Assembly (NCBI RefSeq): GCF_900177345.1
Contig: NZ_FWZT01000010.1
Coordinates: forward strand, 62,001 to 126,000
Direction: 5' to 3'
DNA from: Pseudobacteriovorax antillogorgiicola
GTDB taxonomy: Bacteria > Bdellovibrionota_B > Oligoflexia > Oligoflexales > Oligoflexaceae
DNA: 64,000 nucleotides
Position numbers and translations under genes: made by a program. The notes under the pieces are model-generated. The model did no database searches and had not been told where the DNA came from. It saw nothing but the letters and a program-made list of their open reading frames with translations. Of the stretch, positions 33,577 through 40,462 are shown in pieces. Positions within the stretch are counted from its first letter, which is position 1, and every line of letters starts with the position of its first letter.

Positions 33577-35061
33577 TTACTTGTAAACTGGCCCACGTTT
33601 CAAAGTTTCGCGAATCTTATCGATAATGAGATCAACTTCAGCACTGGTGATGTTGAAGTGAGGAGTAAAGCGCAGGGCGTTTTCGCCACCGTGGATCACC
33701 CCAATTCCGATCTTACGCATATAAGCCTCAACGCAGTCGTCACCAACAACAACGAAACCGTCTTTCTTCAGATGCAAGGCACAGAGCAGCCCAGTACCAG
33801 AAACTCCCGTGACAATATCAGGGAATTCCTTTTGTAGCCCTTTGAACTTATCAATAAATTCTTTACCCCGTTCAACTATGTTTTTTCTGAGTTCAGGAGT
33901 AATCGAATCGAGCACCGCGCAGGCAACGTCAAGGGCACGAGGGTTCGTGGTCATCGTGTTTCCATAGATCCCTCGCTGGAAGATCCCTGCAGCCGTATCA
34001 TTTAAGGCTAGGATGGACAAAGGATACTGGCCCGCATTCACAGCCTTGGAATAAGTTTCCAGATCAGGCGCTTCGCAGTCCTGAAAGCCTGGGTAATCGG
34101 TGATGCTGAGGCAGCCATGAGCCCGAAGACCAGCCTGAATCGAATCCACCAGCATCATACAGCCGTGCTCTTTCGTGAGTTTGCGAACTTCGTCATAAAA
34201 CTCTCGGGTCACGCCTACTCCAGGATTGCCTTCCCCCATCACTGGCTCAAGGAGAACCATCTCGATGAAGACGTTATCCTTCTCCGCTTGTGCAAAAGCC
34301 TGTCGCAATTCGTCAACGTTGTTCGGTTCCACAGTGATCAAGTTCTTGCGATCGCGAAAGGACGCCAGCTTCTGGTAAGATTTCAAACTAGAATCCGATG
34401 CTTGGGCTGGCCGATCAGTTCGGCCGTGAAAGCCACCTTTCATCGCCAGCATGTTGATCGTCCGGCCTTCATAGCGACCACCTGGGTCGGTCACCACGCG
34501 AGCATTGAGATCTGAGATTCGAGCCGCAACGGTTACCGATTCGCTGCCGCTGTTTAGACAAACAAACTTTTTAAAAGGCATACCGCTGCTACGGGTGTGA
34601 CCAACTTCTTTCTTCAAGCGATCCACGAGAAACTTTTGGCTAAAATGCGCGGTCATTACGTTAGCCATGACCTGGCGACCGTTCATTGCATCGAGAACTT
34701 TATCGGGACTGTGCCCAAAGCCCAGCATGCCATAGCCGCCAGAGTCATGAAGCACGGCTCCATGACTCGTTACCAGCCACGGTCCCTTGGCACTGAGAGA
34801 CACATAAGGGTTCACCGCGTTTGCTGCATAGAAATTAAGATAGCCAGCCTGAAGCTCTTCAACAAGCTTGGTTTCATCCATGGTTAGCATGTCTTTGTGT
34901 TCACGCGCCAGCTCTTGGAAGGCTTGGTAAGCCTCATCAATGGCGATGCCAAGACTCGGGTCCTTGTCCAAAAAGGCAGCAAGGATTTCGTCCTCCAAGC
35001 CAGTCGTGACGGCAGCGCCAGTCTGCTTTCTGATCTCATGTAATTTTTCGATTTTTTCCAT
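33577..35061 (-). CDS. Class III PLP-dependent aminotransferase
   Basis: 494 residues, ATG at 35061 with AAGGAG 5 nt upstream (a GTG two codons earlier is too close). Fold-type I class III signatures: VCLNSGSESVTVAAR for phosphate binding, MLAMKGGFHGRTDRPA, the PLP-ring Asp in MMLVDSIQAGLRAHG, and the Schiff-base Lys in TYSKAVNAGQYPLS. The Asp motif differs from the common DEVQTGFGR form (DSIQAG here). About 90 extra N-terminal residues precede the core. Members use ornithine, lysine, GABA, or diaminobutyrate; the sequence does not decide the amine donor. Followed by its own terminator. Confidence 0.85.
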   Translation of the reverse strand: MEKIEKLHEIRKQTGAAVTTGLEDEILAAFLDKDPSLGIAIDEAYQAFQELAREHKDMLTMDETKLVEELQAGYLNFYAANAVNPYVSLSAKGPWLVTSHGAVLHDSGGYGMLGFGHSPDKVLDAMNGRQVMANVMTAHFSQKFLVDRLKKEVGHTRSSGMPFKKFVCLNSGSESVTVAARISDLNARVVTDPGGRYEGRTINMLAMKGGFHGRTDRPAQASDSSLKSYQKLASFRDRKNLITVEPNNVDELRQAFAQAEKDNVFIEMVLLEPVMGEGNPGVGVTREFYDEVRKLTKEHGCMMLVDSIQAGLRAHGCLSITDYPGFQDCEAPDLETYSKAVNAGQYPLSILALNDTAAGIFQRGIYGNTMTTNPRALDVACAVLDSITPELRKNIVERGKEFIDKFKGLQKEFPDIVTGVSGTGLLCALHLKKDGFVVVGDDCVEAYMRKIGIGVIHGGENALRFTPHFNITSAEVDLIIDKIRETLKRGPVYK

Positions 35062-35127
35062 AATCACTCCTTATCCGCAAGCTGTAACGATTCTATCGGC
35101 AAGTCTAGAGGACTTATGTAGGGAGTC

Positions 35128-36342
35128 TTACGACTCAAACGCCATAACAAGCTCAGTTGCCCAGCTAGTCTCACGAAACCATTCCGAGGGTTCTAGATAT
35201 AGCTGCCCCTTTTCGAGCTTTACTAGGCCCATGTCTATCCCAGTTTGCAGTATTTTTCCAGGCTCAAACTTACATTTTAGTAGTTTCTCGATTTCATTGA
35301 CGGGAACCCCCTTCCGGCTTCGCAGGCTGCAACCTATGAGTTCCAGCAACCAATCTGACAGAGTACGCCCCTCGTCAATCGACGCTCCATGACTTATGAG
35401 AAATTCTTCTAGGCTTGTGATATCCGCATCAACGAATCCTTCTCCTGCTCGAAGGTAAGTTCGTAGCTGCTTAGGGAACGCGTAACGGAGGCCGACCTCT
35501 CCGACTGGAAGGTAACCATGGGCGCCACAGCCTAGGCCTAGATAGTGAGAATCTTGCCAGTAGAGCCAATTGTGTTTGCAGGAAAATCCGGGAAGACTCC
35601 AGTTCGAGACTTCATCGTGAATCCAGGGTCCTGACAATGTCATCATAGCGGTTTGATACAAACTCTCCAAGTGCTCATCCGCAACATCCTGTAACATTCC
35701 TCGATCTTTTTTGCGGTTCAGAGGGGTTCCTGCCTCATAGGTAAGGTTATACAGGGAGAGATGGGGAACTCCCAGAACAGCAGCCTGCTCCAAGTCCTGA
35801 CGCCATTGCTGGACGCTCTGATCCGGCCAGCCATAGATTAAATCGATGTTTAAGTTCGAAAATACCTTGAGAACCTCTTCGATCGCCCGTTGAGCCTTAA
35901 TGCTCCCATGGTTCCGAGTTAAGACCTCAAGTCCTCGCTCTTGAAATGTTTGCACCCCCATGCTGATTCGATTAATTCCCAAATCGTGCCACTGGGCTAA
36001 GATATCGGGCTGAATATCTTCGGGATTCGTTTCAATGGAAATCTCGCAATCCGGGGCAATGTGATTTTTAAGCTTACGAAAAATACCTTCGTACTCGCGG
36101 CTAAGCATTCCAGGGGTTCCACCACCTAAAAATATGGAGGTGAACTTCTGTCTCGCTCCCTGCTCAGAGTTTAGAAACCAGTCCAGTTGTCGTTCTAGAA
36201 GATCCATGTAAGCTGTTACATGGTCCTGTGTAAAGTTCGCAGTTTTGGCAAAGTCGCAGTAATGACAAATGGATCGGCAAAACGGAATATGAAGATAGAG
36301 GCCAAACCGCTGTTGCACCTGGCTTACAAGATCCGCACTCAC
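35128..36342 (-). CDS. hemW: Radical SAM heme chaperone HemW
   Basis: 404 residues. The radical SAM cluster motif is C-x3-C-x2-C in GLYLHIPFCRSICHYCDF, followed by GGGTPGML and ISIETNPEDI, all typical of HemW rather than HemN, which has a longer N-terminus. HemW inserts heme into respiratory proteins and is not coproporphyrinogen oxidase. That matches an organism with multi-heme ActA. The start is GTG overlapping the maf stop by 4 nt (GTGA) with a weak ribosome site, so translation is coupled to maf. The C-terminal winged-helix part is present. Confidence 0.9.
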   Translation of the reverse strand: MSADLVSQVQQRFGLYLHIPFCRSICHYCDFAKTANFTQDHVTAYMDLLERQLDWFLNSEQGARQKFTSIFLGGGTPGMLSREYEGIFRKLKNHIAPDCEISIETNPEDIQPDILAQWHDLGINRISMGVQTFQERGLEVLTRNHGSIKAQRAIEEVLKVFSNLNIDLIYGWPDQSVQQWRQDLEQAAVLGVPHLSLYNLTYEAGTPLNRKKDRGMLQDVADEHLESLYQTAMMTLSGPWIHDEVSNWSLPGFSCKHNWLYWQDSHYLGLGCGAHGYLPVGEVGLRYAFPKQLRTYLRAGEGFVDADITSLEEFLISHGASIDEGRTLSDWLLELIGCSLRSRKGVPVNEIEKLLKCKFEPGKILQTGIDMGLVKLEKGQLYLEPSEWFRETSWATELVMAFES

Positions 36343-36944
36343 GCTGACACCAAGGAGCGTAGACTGACTAGGAATTCAGCCAAGGGTAGCCCGACAACAT
36401 TGGAATAGGAACCTTCGATACTCTTCACCATAAAGCCACCAATTCCCTGAATTCCATAGGAGCCGGCCTTATCCATAGGTTCTCCTGTGCTGATATAATA
36501 GCGACAGTCTTCGGCACTCAAATCCACAAATTTTACGAAAGTGGTTTCAGCATGAGTCGTTTGCTTCACACCGCCTTTGTCACTTTTGATCATACAAAAG
36601 CTTGAAATCACCTCATGGCGGCTGCCTGAAAGCTTCATGAGCATCGCTTCTGCATCTGATTCAGATTTCGGTTTTTCCATCACCTGACCGTTAGAAACAA
36701 CTATAGTATCGGCACTGATGACGAGAATATCACCGTCAGACTGTTTTTTTTCGAACACCCATTCAGCCTTCTCACGGGCATTTCTTAGAACATAATCTCT
36801 GGGTAACTCACCTGACTTTATTCGCTCTTCCGTCTCTGGCTTCACAACCGTGAAAGAGACTCCTAAATCGGCAAGCATTTGCTGACGACGAGGTGACGAA
36901 CTTCCCAGGATGATTTGACCATCATACTTAACGAGTTGAGCCAT
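36339..36944 (-). CDS. maf: Maf-like nucleotide pyrophosphatase
   Basis: 201 residues from the ATG at 36944, chosen because GAGGAG lies 7 nt upstream; the frame remains open for 76 codons further but there overlaps the TsaC-like gene. Maf motifs: IILGSSSPRRQQML near residue 8, VISADTIVV, EKPKSESDAEAMLMKLSG, and DKAGSYGIQGIGGFMV. These enzymes hydrolyse dTTP/UTP or modified nucleotides to the monophosphate. It overlaps the TsaC-like gene by 17 nt and hemW by 4 nt, in a tightly coupled block. Confidence 0.92.
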   Translation of the reverse strand: MAQLVKYDGQIILGSSSPRRQQMLADLGVSFTVVKPETEERIKSGELPRDYVLRNAREKAEWVFEKKQSDGDILVISADTIVVSNGQVMEKPKSESDAEAMLMKLSGSRHEVISSFCMIKSDKGGVKQTTHAETTFVKFVDLSAEDCRYYISTGEPMDKAGSYGIQGIGGFMVKSIEGSYSNVVGLPLAEFLVSLRSLVSA

Positions 36945-37554
36945 GAAGGGCCTCCTCAATATGCTGCTGCTCACATGGGCCTGGGCGAAGAATATCAAAG
37001 TCGCCATCGCCCTTGATTCGGATGACGGTGCTCGCCTGCCCACCCGGGACGGCAAAAGACGAAGGTATATAGACCCCAGCGCCCCCCTCCAGAAACATGC
37101 GCGCATCTTGCCAATCATTGGCCGAAGCTTTGCCAGACTGGTTGACGCTGGTTGTGGGGAATGGTTTATCAACTTGGGCCATCACTTCGTACATCCAACG
37201 ATTGCTCTCATCAAGCAAGGGCACCCGAAACGCGACGCTACCATCATCCCTAACAAGACTTACGGGGCAATTGTCTGCCGCTTGCCAAATGACACTCAGA
37301 GACGCTGGCCAAAGCTTTTCCAGCGCTCGATCCCAAACACTGGGTAAAGGTTTCCAAAACTGCTTCGCTGCTGCTAGTGATGGCAATAGGCAGATACAGG
37401 TTTTACGTTCATCGCGACCTTTCAGGGAGGCCAAGCGCTCCCAGGCCTCGGCATTATCTGGATCAAAACTCAAACCCGGCAGAGTGTCTGTTGGGTGCAG
37501 ACAAATATCGCCAGCCTTCCAATGACTTAACATATGCTCAACTTGATGTGGCAT
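36928..37554 (-). CDS. YrdC/Sua5-domain protein (TsaC-like)
   Basis: 208 residues. The YrdC fold is recognised by ICLHPTDTLPGLSFDPDN near the N-terminus, the KGRDERKTCICLLPS segment, and a PFPTTSVNQSGKASA motif near residue 130. TsaC/Sua5 make threonylcarbamoyl-AMP from Thr, bicarbonate and ATP for t6A37 of tRNA. It lacks the Sua5 C-terminal domain. The usual signature KxR...(S/T)xN is present as KGRDERKT and SVNQSG. Ribosome site AAGGG is rather distant. It could be the sole TsaC or a YciO-like paralogue. Confidence 0.8.
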   Translation of the reverse strand: MPHQVEHMLSHWKAGDICLHPTDTLPGLSFDPDNAEAWERLASLKGRDERKTCICLLPSLAAAKQFWKPLPSVWDRALEKLWPASLSVIWQAADNCPVSLVRDDGSVAFRVPLLDESNRWMYEVMAQVDKPFPTTSVNQSGKASANDWQDARMFLEGGAGVYIPSSFAVPGGQASTVIRIKGDGDFDILRPGPCEQQHIEEALHGSTR

Positions 37555-37560
37555 TCTTAT

Positions 37561-38040
37561 TCAACCCTTAAAATCGATTCGGTGCAGATCGTCTGATTCC
37601 TCGATACGAGCCTCTTGGCTTTGACGATATTGCTTTATTTTCACCAGTAGTTCTGGATCACGAAGCCCAACAACTTGAGCAGTAAATAGGGCGGCTTGGC
37701 AAAAACCGTTTTGTCCGGAACAGCCTGTGGTTACGACAGGCGACCCAAGCCCCAGGACGACCTGACTTTGGTCACTCAAATTCGAAACGGCAATCACAGG
37801 CAAGTTTGTGTGAGCAGAAGCAACAGTTCCTAGCGAGGCGACATTTTCTGAAACACAGATAATAGCACTTCCACCCTTTTGCTCGTGGTTTTCTGCAATA
37901 TCCTTAAGCCGCTCGAATTGACCTTGGGCCGAGGCTATCCGCACACTGAAGGCCACACCAAGATCTTTAAATATTTCAAGGCCGTCTTCTAACGTCTCTA
38001 AATGACTCTTACTGCCAACGAGCACAAGTACACTTGTCAT
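37561..38040 (-). CDS. PurE-like protein lacking the catalytic histidine
   Basis: 159 residues from the ATG at 38040 (GAGGTG 4 nt upstream). It aligns end to end with PurE, the N5-CAIR mutase of purine synthesis: VLVLVGSKSH at the start, a central LPVIAVSNLSDQSQVVLGLGSPV, and a C-terminal ELLVKIKQYRQSQEA. Residues that bind or act on CAIR are changed. The usual SDW after GSK is SHL; the SAHRTP motif with the catalytic His is SAQGQF (37-42); and the GAGGAAHLPG loop is VSENVASLGT (63-72). It is probably catalytically inactive or has another substrate. Lies 8 nt after purD. Confidence 0.75.
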   Translation of the reverse strand: MTSVLVLVGSKSHLETLEDGLEIFKDLGVAFSVRIASAQGQFERLKDIAENHEQKGGSAIICVSENVASLGTVASAHTNLPVIAVSNLSDQSQVVLGLGSPVVTTGCSGQNGFCQAALFTAQVVGLRDPELLVKIKQYRQSQEARIEESDDLHRIDFKG

Positions 38041-38048
38041 CAATCACC

Positions 38049-39341
38049 TCATGAATCGTCTGCAACTCGCAACGCGATGTCGTTACGGAATTGAGCATAT
38101 GGCCATTGTTCAGCTAAAGTTCGCACCTCATGATAGGCTTGAGACCGAGCTTTTTTAAAAGTCGATCCAGCTTGTACCACGGTTAGCACCCGGCCTGCAC
38201 CAGGTTTCAAGACTTCACCATCAGCCTGCACCGAGGCTCCGAAAACAGCTTGGTCTATGCCTTTGTGGGAAAACAAGTCCGACGGTAAGGCTTGCACTTC
38301 CTGTTTCGGCTTCTCGTAGGGATATCCTTCACTGGCCATGACGATCGCGACTGTTTGCCTCGCCACCTGCTCCATTTGCGGCTCATAGCGTTCTAAGAGC
38401 CCCAGTTGAGAGGCAATCATCTGCCCCCAATCTCGGCTATCATGAATGGCAAGAGCCTGAGCCTCCGGGTCTCCCAGCCTAACGTTGAACTCAACCACAG
38501 AAGGGCCTGCTTCGCCCCACATCAGCCCTACATAAAGACAACCTGAGTATTCAACATCTTGCTGCTTAAGCTCCGCAATAAGGGGTTGTACAACCTTGCT
38601 CATCACTTGCTCGCTAGCATCTTCCGGTAGCCATGGAACAGGTGTATAACACCCCATCCCACCTGTGTTGGGGCCCTCGTCACCATCTTTCAAACGCTTG
38701 AAATCTACAGCAAAGCCTAAAGGGTTGGCTCCTTGCTCACCAACAAAACAGAAGAATGAGCATTCGCGACCTTTGAGAACTTCTTCAACTACAATGCGTT
38801 CTGCCGCCTGAGCCATCGAGGTTTTTAAGCGATGAATTCCATTTCGCACATCGTCCTCGCTCTGGCAGACAAAGACTCCCTTACCAGCCGCCAAGCCACT
38901 GGCTTTGATAACGGCTCCTCCGGTTCTCGCTAGCATGTTGAGAGCCACTGCCTCACATTCATCGAAATCCCCTACGACCTGATAACCAGCTGTTGGAATC
39001 CCTGCCGCCTTCATGGTTTCTTTCGCAAACTCTTTCGAAGATTCAAGAGCTGCAGCCCGCTGCTGAGGACCAAATACTGGAATTTTTTCTTGGCGGCATA
39101 GGTCGGCAAATCCCTCCGCCAGGGGTTGTTCGGGACCTACCACCACAAAATCAATCTTCTCGCTAGCGGCTGCTTTGGCCAAGCCTTGCCAAGTTTCATC
39201 CTCCGCTTGAAACGCCTTACCGAGGCGGTTGATCGCTGCCGATCCAGGCCAGAACAGAAGCTCTGTAACAACCTTTGACTGGCTTAGTTTCCATGCCAGA
39301 GCATGCTCGCGCGCCCCAGACCCAACTAGCAGAACTTTCAT
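38049..39341 (-). CDS. purD: Phosphoribosylamine-glycine ligase
   Basis: 430 residues, the usual length. GAR synthetase joins glycine to phosphoribosylamine with ATP, the second step of purine synthesis. The N-domain begins KVLLVGSGAREHALAWKL. The ATP-grasp domain includes VVVGPEQPLAEGFADL, AAGKGVFVCQSEDDV and a NVRLGDPEAQAL loop that binds metal. GAGGG lies 7 nt before the ATG. First gene of a minus-strand unit that continues into the PurE-like gene. A strong promoter is visible upstream. Confidence 0.95.
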   Translation of the reverse strand: MKVLLVGSGAREHALAWKLSQSKVVTELLFWPGSAAINRLGKAFQAEDETWQGLAKAAASEKIDFVVVGPEQPLAEGFADLCRQEKIPVFGPQQRAAALESSKEFAKETMKAAGIPTAGYQVVGDFDECEAVALNMLARTGGAVIKASGLAAGKGVFVCQSEDDVRNGIHRLKTSMAQAAERIVVEEVLKGRECSFFCFVGEQGANPLGFAVDFKRLKDGDEGPNTGGMGCYTPVPWLPEDASEQVMSKVVQPLIAELKQQDVEYSGCLYVGLMWGEAGPSVVEFNVRLGDPEAQALAIHDSRDWGQMIASQLGLLERYEPQMEQVARQTVAIVMASEGYPYEKPKQEVQALPSDLFSHKGIDQAVFGASVQADGEVLKPGAGRVLTVVQAGSTFKKARSQAYHEVRTLAEQWPYAQFRNDIALRVADDS

Positions 39342-39411: not shown

Positions 39412-39502
39412 CCATGTCCTGAGGCACCCCTCTCGTGCTACAATGGAATTAGGTATACCCTATCGACCACCTTTTGGCCTTCTTCGCACGAGGAATCACC
39501 CT

Positions 39503-40462
39503 ATGTCTTCTAAACGGGGTATTTTTGGGGCTTGGGAAATCCCCAATTTGGTTCTTATTTCGGCTCAGAAAGATTCTGTGACCGGCGAGATCGTCGATCG
39601 CCTTTTGCGCCGTGGGTGGAAGTTTAGCCACATGACAGATAACATTCGGGAAGGTTTTAGCGCCTTGGAAGACGGCGAGGCTTCGGTTTTACTCATCGAA
39701 GACAGCCACGATCTGCCGGCGAGCCTAGTTCTCCGCGGTCAACTTTCCAACCCAACCGCCTTACTGACACCCACAATGGTTGCTGCCTCTGACGACCAGC
39801 CCGATAAGGCTCTCTTTAAAGAAATTGGCATGCCAGAAGTGATAGATGCTCCGATTCATCCAGCCCGATTTATTGAGTCCTTGGAGTTCATGCTACGGCG
39901 CTGGTCCACAGGTAACCTCGCTCGCATCTGGGATGTTCGAAAGCTGCTGGTCAAAAAGCAGAGTACGGAAGCGATGAAAGCCCTGACAACTATGGTCGGA
40001 ACCAGCGAACTAATGCCTTTGCTCGCCCCTGCTATCGCCCATGGTATTCGGCGTTTGAATGATGCAAAGGTCGTAGAAAAGGTTTTGCTTAACGCCATCC
40101 GCGAGTTCCCCAGAAACTTAGGAATCATCCTTTCAACCATCGATTTTTATCTCCATATGGCGATGCCAGACACCGCCCTGAAGGTGATCGAGGCTGCCAA
40201 GAAAAACCACGGAAATCCCAATCTTGTAATCCCAGAGCAAATCCAAGCTAAGCTGATGCTCAATGAAGTGGACCAATGCATTCCGCTTCTCAAAGAGCTT
40301 ATGAAAGCCAACTATATGCCTAAAACTGCTAAGGTTTTTCTCAGCCGTTGCCTCTATGCTGAAGGTCATGTGGAAGACTTTATGAATAGCATCGATCATC
40401 AAATTATTCTGCTCGATCAATTCAAGCAAGCCTGGACCCGTAAAACAGGAGAAAGCGCCTAG
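39503..40462 (+). CDS. Receiver-like domain protein with helical repeats
   Basis: 319 residues from the ATG at 39503, which has GAGG upstream (an earlier ATG at 39443 lacks one). Residues about 15-135 look like a response-regulator receiver: NLVLISAQKD, SVLLIEDSHDLP at the phosphorylation strand, and VIDAPIHPARFIESL where a true receiver has a KP motif. The missing Lys suggests it cannot be phosphorylated normally. The rest (about 150-319) is helical with TPR-like repeats, e.g. TALKVIEAAKKNHGNPNLV. It is followed directly by the ATPase gene. Likely a scaffold or sensor. Confidence 0.7.
   Translation: MSSKRGIFGAWEIPNLVLISAQKDSVTGEIVDRLLRRGWKFSHMTDNIREGFSALEDGEASVLLIEDSHDLPASLVLRGQLSNPTALLTPTMVAASDDQPDKALFKEIGMPEVIDAPIHPARFIESLEFMLRRWSTGNLARIWDVRKLLVKKQSTEAMKALTTMVGTSELMPLLAPAIAHGIRRLNDAKVVEKVLLNAIREFPRNLGIILSTIDFYLHMAMPDTALKVIEAAKKNHGNPNLVIPEQIQAKLMLNEVDQCIPLLKELMKANYMPKTAKVFLSRCLYAEGHVEDFMNSIDHQIILLDQFKQAWTRKTGESA

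Follow-up and report, generated by a model that had tools for sequence, protein, structure and literature searches.

Two described forms of PurE bear most closely on the locus analysed here: class I PurE, the N5-CAIR mutase (TIGR01162; e.g. E. coli PurE, 1qcz), which serves the AIR-to-CAIR step together with PurK, and class II PurE, the AIR carboxylase (e.g. human PAICS and Treponema denticola 3rg8), whose route is independent of PurK. LarB (NF033503) has the AIRC domain in common with PurE. Non-orthologous replacement of enzymes and pseudoenzymes are both known phenomena. PurK-less PurEs are already known in archaea, and purK is absent from methanogens (PMC3261824).

The window, a 64,000-nucleotide stretch of Pseudobacteriovorax antillogorgiicola DNA, contains a PurE homologue that is like class I PurE in fold, length and purine-operon context, and whose Foldseek and phmmer matches to class I PurE extend over nearly the whole chain. 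Unlike class I PurE, it lacks the catalytic His, the Asp and the glycine loop, and no purK adjoins it. Judged by sequence, it belongs, in degraded form, to a second PurE lineage linked to purD, here termed PurE2, and is not an N5-CAIR mutase variant. The explanation that is favoured, at a probability of about 0.72, is that it is a dead but still open relic of a PurE2 displaced by purKE, redundant and with its active site lost, and perhaps kept for the translation of sua5 and maf.

The degenerate PurE2 frame and the working PurE of the cell

The open reading frame and the segments in which its active-site motifs are replaced are the following:

37561..38040, minus strand: degenerate PurE2 frame of 159 aa, with its ATG at 38040 and its stop at 37561; motifs lost, PurE fold predicted
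38002..38016, minus strand: GSKSH replacing the GSxSD loop, residues 9-13, by sequence comparison
37915..37932, minus strand: SAQGQF replacing the SAHR(S/T)P catalytic motif, residues 37-42, by sequence comparison
37825..37854, minus strand: VSENVASLGT replacing VAGxSAHLAG, residues 63-72, by sequence comparison

The Pfam AIRC profile (PF00731) covers residues 5-144 with a score of 78.9 bits (E 3.7e-22; gathering cut-off 30), and phmmer aligns the protein with solved PurEs over near-complete length at E 3.7e-13, so that the whole-length PurE homology claimed by the first-pass annotation is borne out and is not due to chance. The PurE equivalog profile TIGR01162 gives 81.4 bits, below its cut-off of 149.6. 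The same annotation had read SAHRTP changed to SAQGQF, with loss of the catalytic His, and the GSKSD start changed to GSKSH, and both are seen in the alignment; it was also right that a loop is replaced by VSENVASLGT, but this loop reads VAGMSAHLAG in the true relatives and not GAGGAAHLPG as it had supposed. SAHRxP has lost its His, Arg and Pro, GSxSD has lost its Asp, and the AGxSAHLAG loop is gone as well; in addition, an 8-residue deletion takes out most of TAGLDALL (the TAGxDALLS segment), and the QMPxG of PurE2 has become VLGLG. Of the non-hydrophobic positions that are invariant in nine intact PurE2 proteins, 31 can be aligned in the window copy, which is changed at 15 of them, and 5 more are deleted. 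These losses suggest a protein that would have no catalytic activity. Sequencing error or a frameshift was rejected as their cause because the substitutions are many and separate, the frame is open throughout, and similar losses occur in two sister genomes.

A PF00731 search of the whole genome (7.28 Mb, 96.9% complete) gave two matches only, the window frame and a canonical PurE. The latter (208 bits) has SAHRTP and GAGGAAHLPG intact and lies directly downstream of purK on another contig (C20, locus L001). The canonical purE/purK pair that the first-pass annotation had envisaged elsewhere in the genome is thus present, and consequently the window frame is not the cell's working PurE. The genome also has purM, purC and purH, the purC match of 168.6 bits being below the curated cut-off of 189.9.

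Membership in three other groups was considered and rejected. Descent by mutation from the cell's own class I PurE does not fit the window copy, which is 27% identical to that protein, as against 35-38% to the PurE2 of the sister genus; the VAGRSNGLG-type loop of class II PurE is absent from the window copy and from intact PurE2 as well; and the LarB profile NF033503 gave no match to it at E up to 0.001.

That the protein still works as a PurE through an atypical active site is extremely improbable. It has the PurE fold, and its homologues perform the AIR-to-CAIR step, but the residues just listed are gone and a canonical PurE and PurK are present. E. coli PurE H45Q, which carries the same His-to-Gln change, is severely impaired. 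This mutant has been crystallised with ligands bound (2nsh, 2nsj); a partial literature search found no papers on PurE H45Q. For the purD-linked PurE homologues of this group, annotation as N5-CAIR mutase is to be avoided.

The operon and the purD-linked PurE2 lineage

The frame lies in a run of genes on the same strand:

38049..39341, minus strand: purD, which opens the operon (TIGR00877 match of 366.6 bits, exceeding the cut-off)
38044..38050, minus strand: Shine-Dalgarno GAGGTGA 5' of the PurE2 ATG, overlapping the purD stop codon, read from the sequence
36928..37554, minus strand: Sua5/YrdC-type L-threonylcarbamoyladenylate synthase, the next gene, by profile matches
36339..37172, minus strand: maf, listed with a TTG start far upstream inside sua5; Maf domain from near residue 86
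35128..36342, minus strand: hemW-like radical SAM protein; operon order the same within the family

The adjacency to purD noted earlier holds, with purD (38049-39341) directly upstream and only a few bases between the two genes. An in-frame TTG (38043) stands one codon 5' of the PurE2 ATG at 38040; the degenerate frame stops 6 bases 5' of the start codon of sua5, whose SD-like AAGGG sits within the final codons of the frame. As the Maf domain begins only near residue 86, the true maf start is probably later than the listed one. From this spacing of signals, the degenerate PurE2 frame looks like a still translated gene within a tightly packed operon.

Adjoining the operon, the minus strand of the window encodes at 33577-35067 a 496-aa class III aminotransferase that is below all NCBIfam cut-offs shown; it is strongly conserved in Oligoflexaceae and has 54-68% identical relatives in Lysobacterales/Wenzhouxiangella and in scattered MAGs. 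On the other side, a divergent 339-aa protein with no Pfam match is encoded on the plus strand (39443-40462); together with the next frame, AAA-type ATPase-like, and a TamB-like frame it is conserved across the order.

The gene order purD-purE2-sua5-maf is common to families across the order Oligoflexales, and the window frame occupies the slot between purD and sua5/maf that PurE2 occupies in relatives. It is also PurE2 to which the window protein has its highest identity (35-38%), and both have a C-terminal D...R.IF-like tail. Unlike the window copy, intact PurE2 proteins retain the motifs GSxSD, SAHR(S/T)P, CVAGxSAHLAG, TAGxDALxS and QMPxG. The best solved relative of the PurE2 profile, at 182 bits, is 2ywx, a PurE catalytic subunit that we take to be that of Methanocaldococcus jannaschii. 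In four genomes (G008, G009, G010 and G035) PurE2 is the sole PurE found and purK is absent, the best TIGR01161 matches being generic ATP-grasp proteins (E ~1e-10 to 1e-7); the fragmented assembly G006 likewise has PurE2 as the only PurE found and no purK. On the basis of genomes with PurE2 and without purK, intact PurE2 would be an AIR carboxylase that works without PurK. Such gene content, together with 2ywx as the best match, makes it probable that the ancestor of the window frame was a PurK-independent CAIR-forming enzyme, following in this respect the same kind of route as class II PurE.

Stages of the proposed replacement and the fate of the dead copies

Four stages, from intact PurE2 to its deletion, were found across Oligoflexales genomes (G numbers; G000 is the window genome):

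Stage i: PurE2 alone, without purK (G008, G009, G010, G035)
Stage ii: PurE2 and purKE both intact (G002, G004, G005, G027, G030)
Stage iii: purKE with a dead PurE2 (G000, G001, G003)
Stage iv: purKE present and PurE2 gone, sua5 or maf coming straight after purD (e.g. G007, G011, G014, G016, G018, G038, G012, G020, G024, G036)

The two other dead copies are these:

G001 (Pseudobacteriovorax sp. DT_89): dead PurE2 of 157 aa, NARHDR replacing SAHRxP
G003 (Oligoflexaceae Jr-28jun17-220, locus L052): dead PurE2 of 141-149 aa, central part missing, SPEGAP replacing SAHRxP

The operon of G003 (L052 6990 / L214 4623) has no sua5, and its dead purE2 frame overlaps directly with the start of maf. A tree of seven neighbouring genes places G003 as sister to G002 with 100% support. 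Since the PurE2 of G002 is intact, the loss in G003 is independent, and a single loss common to all three dead copies was rejected on the same ground. The class I purE of G003 groups apart from that of G002, and the gene order is opposite, with purE before purK. PurE2 has thus degenerated at least two independent times, with purKE present each time. In the PurE tree itself the positions of the three dead copies are unreliable, their branches being long.

In the sequence of events proposed, an ancestral purD-linked PurE2 would have made CAIR without PurK until the AIR-to-CAIR step was taken over by PurK and a class I PurE encoded elsewhere. PurE2, redundant once purKE had been acquired, would then have lost its active-site loops. 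The frame would stay open, and apparently translated, owing to its place between purD and sua5 in a tight operon, where translation through it perhaps feeds sua5 and maf. We infer that such translational coupling, and not a function of the protein, keeps the window frame open; other genomes have lost purE2 cleanly with the operon intact, so that coupling by itself would not make retention of the gene necessary.

The chief alternative is a selected pseudoenzyme, i.e. a PurE fold without catalysis that serves as scaffold, regulator or hetero-oligomer partner (of PurE, PurD or Sua5), and it is considered unlikely, though by no means negligible. None of the three dead copies contains a stop codon, and all three keep the core fold and lie in the same operon slot, at 23-37% identity to intact PurE2; the window copy has a good Shine-Dalgarno. 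Constraint was assessed by letting an intact PurE2 diverge neutrally in simulation as far as each copy has diverged, a second version of the simulation purging stops. Neutral decay ended with no stop in about 3-11% of the window-copy runs, in 0.3-0.7% of the G001 runs and in 1% of those for G003; with such runs so rare, three open frames together are unlikely without some constraint. Retention of the hydrophobic core also favours a pseudoenzyme, clearly in G001, where 30/33 positions are kept, above the expectation of stop-purged drift (P at most 0.005), and weakly in G003 (22/28, P 0.085). Plain decay is therefore not the whole story in G001. In the window copy, however, the 27/33 positions kept match the stop-purged expectation (P 0.51-0.84), and recent decay fits this copy alone equally well. 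Selection on the window-copy core, suggested by a first simulation (P 0.028), was discarded since the effect vanished with a more conservative start (P 0.51-0.84). The genomes examined include no close relative of the window genome.

Structure prediction gives the pseudoenzyme a further argument. The AlphaFold monomer of the window protein (pLDDT 90.8) is predicted to have the PurE fold, with TM up to 0.88 to PurE crystal structures, and the shortened G003 copy is likewise predicted to be PurE-like (pLDDT 91.0), with four strands remaining; but the alignments behind the window and G003 models contained intact PurEs, which biases both towards the PurE fold. Against a common selected function stand the low pairwise identity of the three dead copies, only 23-28% with no new conserved motif among them, the loss of about a fifth to a quarter of the fold in G003, and the absence of the gene from the majority of purKE relatives. 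The wider proposal that Oligoflexaceae repeatedly, at least twice, made a displaced PurE into a selected non-catalytic PurE-fold protein, for instance one with a regulatory or structural role as a partner within the purine or threonylcarbamoyl-adenosine operon, is doubtful.

A new enzymatic activity on a related substrate, to which the open frame and the predicted fold would lend themselves, is very improbable: the residues at the catalytic motif differ among the dead copies (SAQGQF, NARHDR, SPEGAP), the loops are lost with no other conserved set in their place, and the neighbourhood showed no metabolic gene confined to the genomes with a dead copy. Of the first-pass annotation, the loss of the catalytic residues stands, while the stages from intact to deleted favour a displaced enzyme over the regulator or new activity that it had suggested.

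Solutions to the AIR-to-CAIR step in Oligoflexales

Other arrangements occur within the order. G029, which has no purK, encodes directly upstream of purD (contig C12, L166 92-1504) a 470-aa PurC-PurE fusion of SAICAR synthetase and an AIRC domain with the class II loop VAGRSNGLGG, a PAICS-like arrangement in a bacterium, and frames similar to it by length and PurE score are present in G040 and G054. Order-wide searches of G017, G019, G028, G031, G032 and G034 found neither a PurE nor a convincing purK or purD, and these six may be purine auxotrophs.

In Oligoflexales the essential AIR-to-CAIR step has thus passed among at least three solutions: a PurK-less PurE, PurK with class I PurE, and a fusion of PurC with class II PurE. 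A limited literature search found no description of a PurE pseudoenzyme or of a dead PurE homologue in a purine operon; the term PurE pseudoenzyme would apply to the dead copies if a function were shown for them. For the first of these replacements all the intermediate states survive, among them dead enzymes that persist as open frames in the operon, and the order consequently offers a compact natural series for the replacement of an enzyme.
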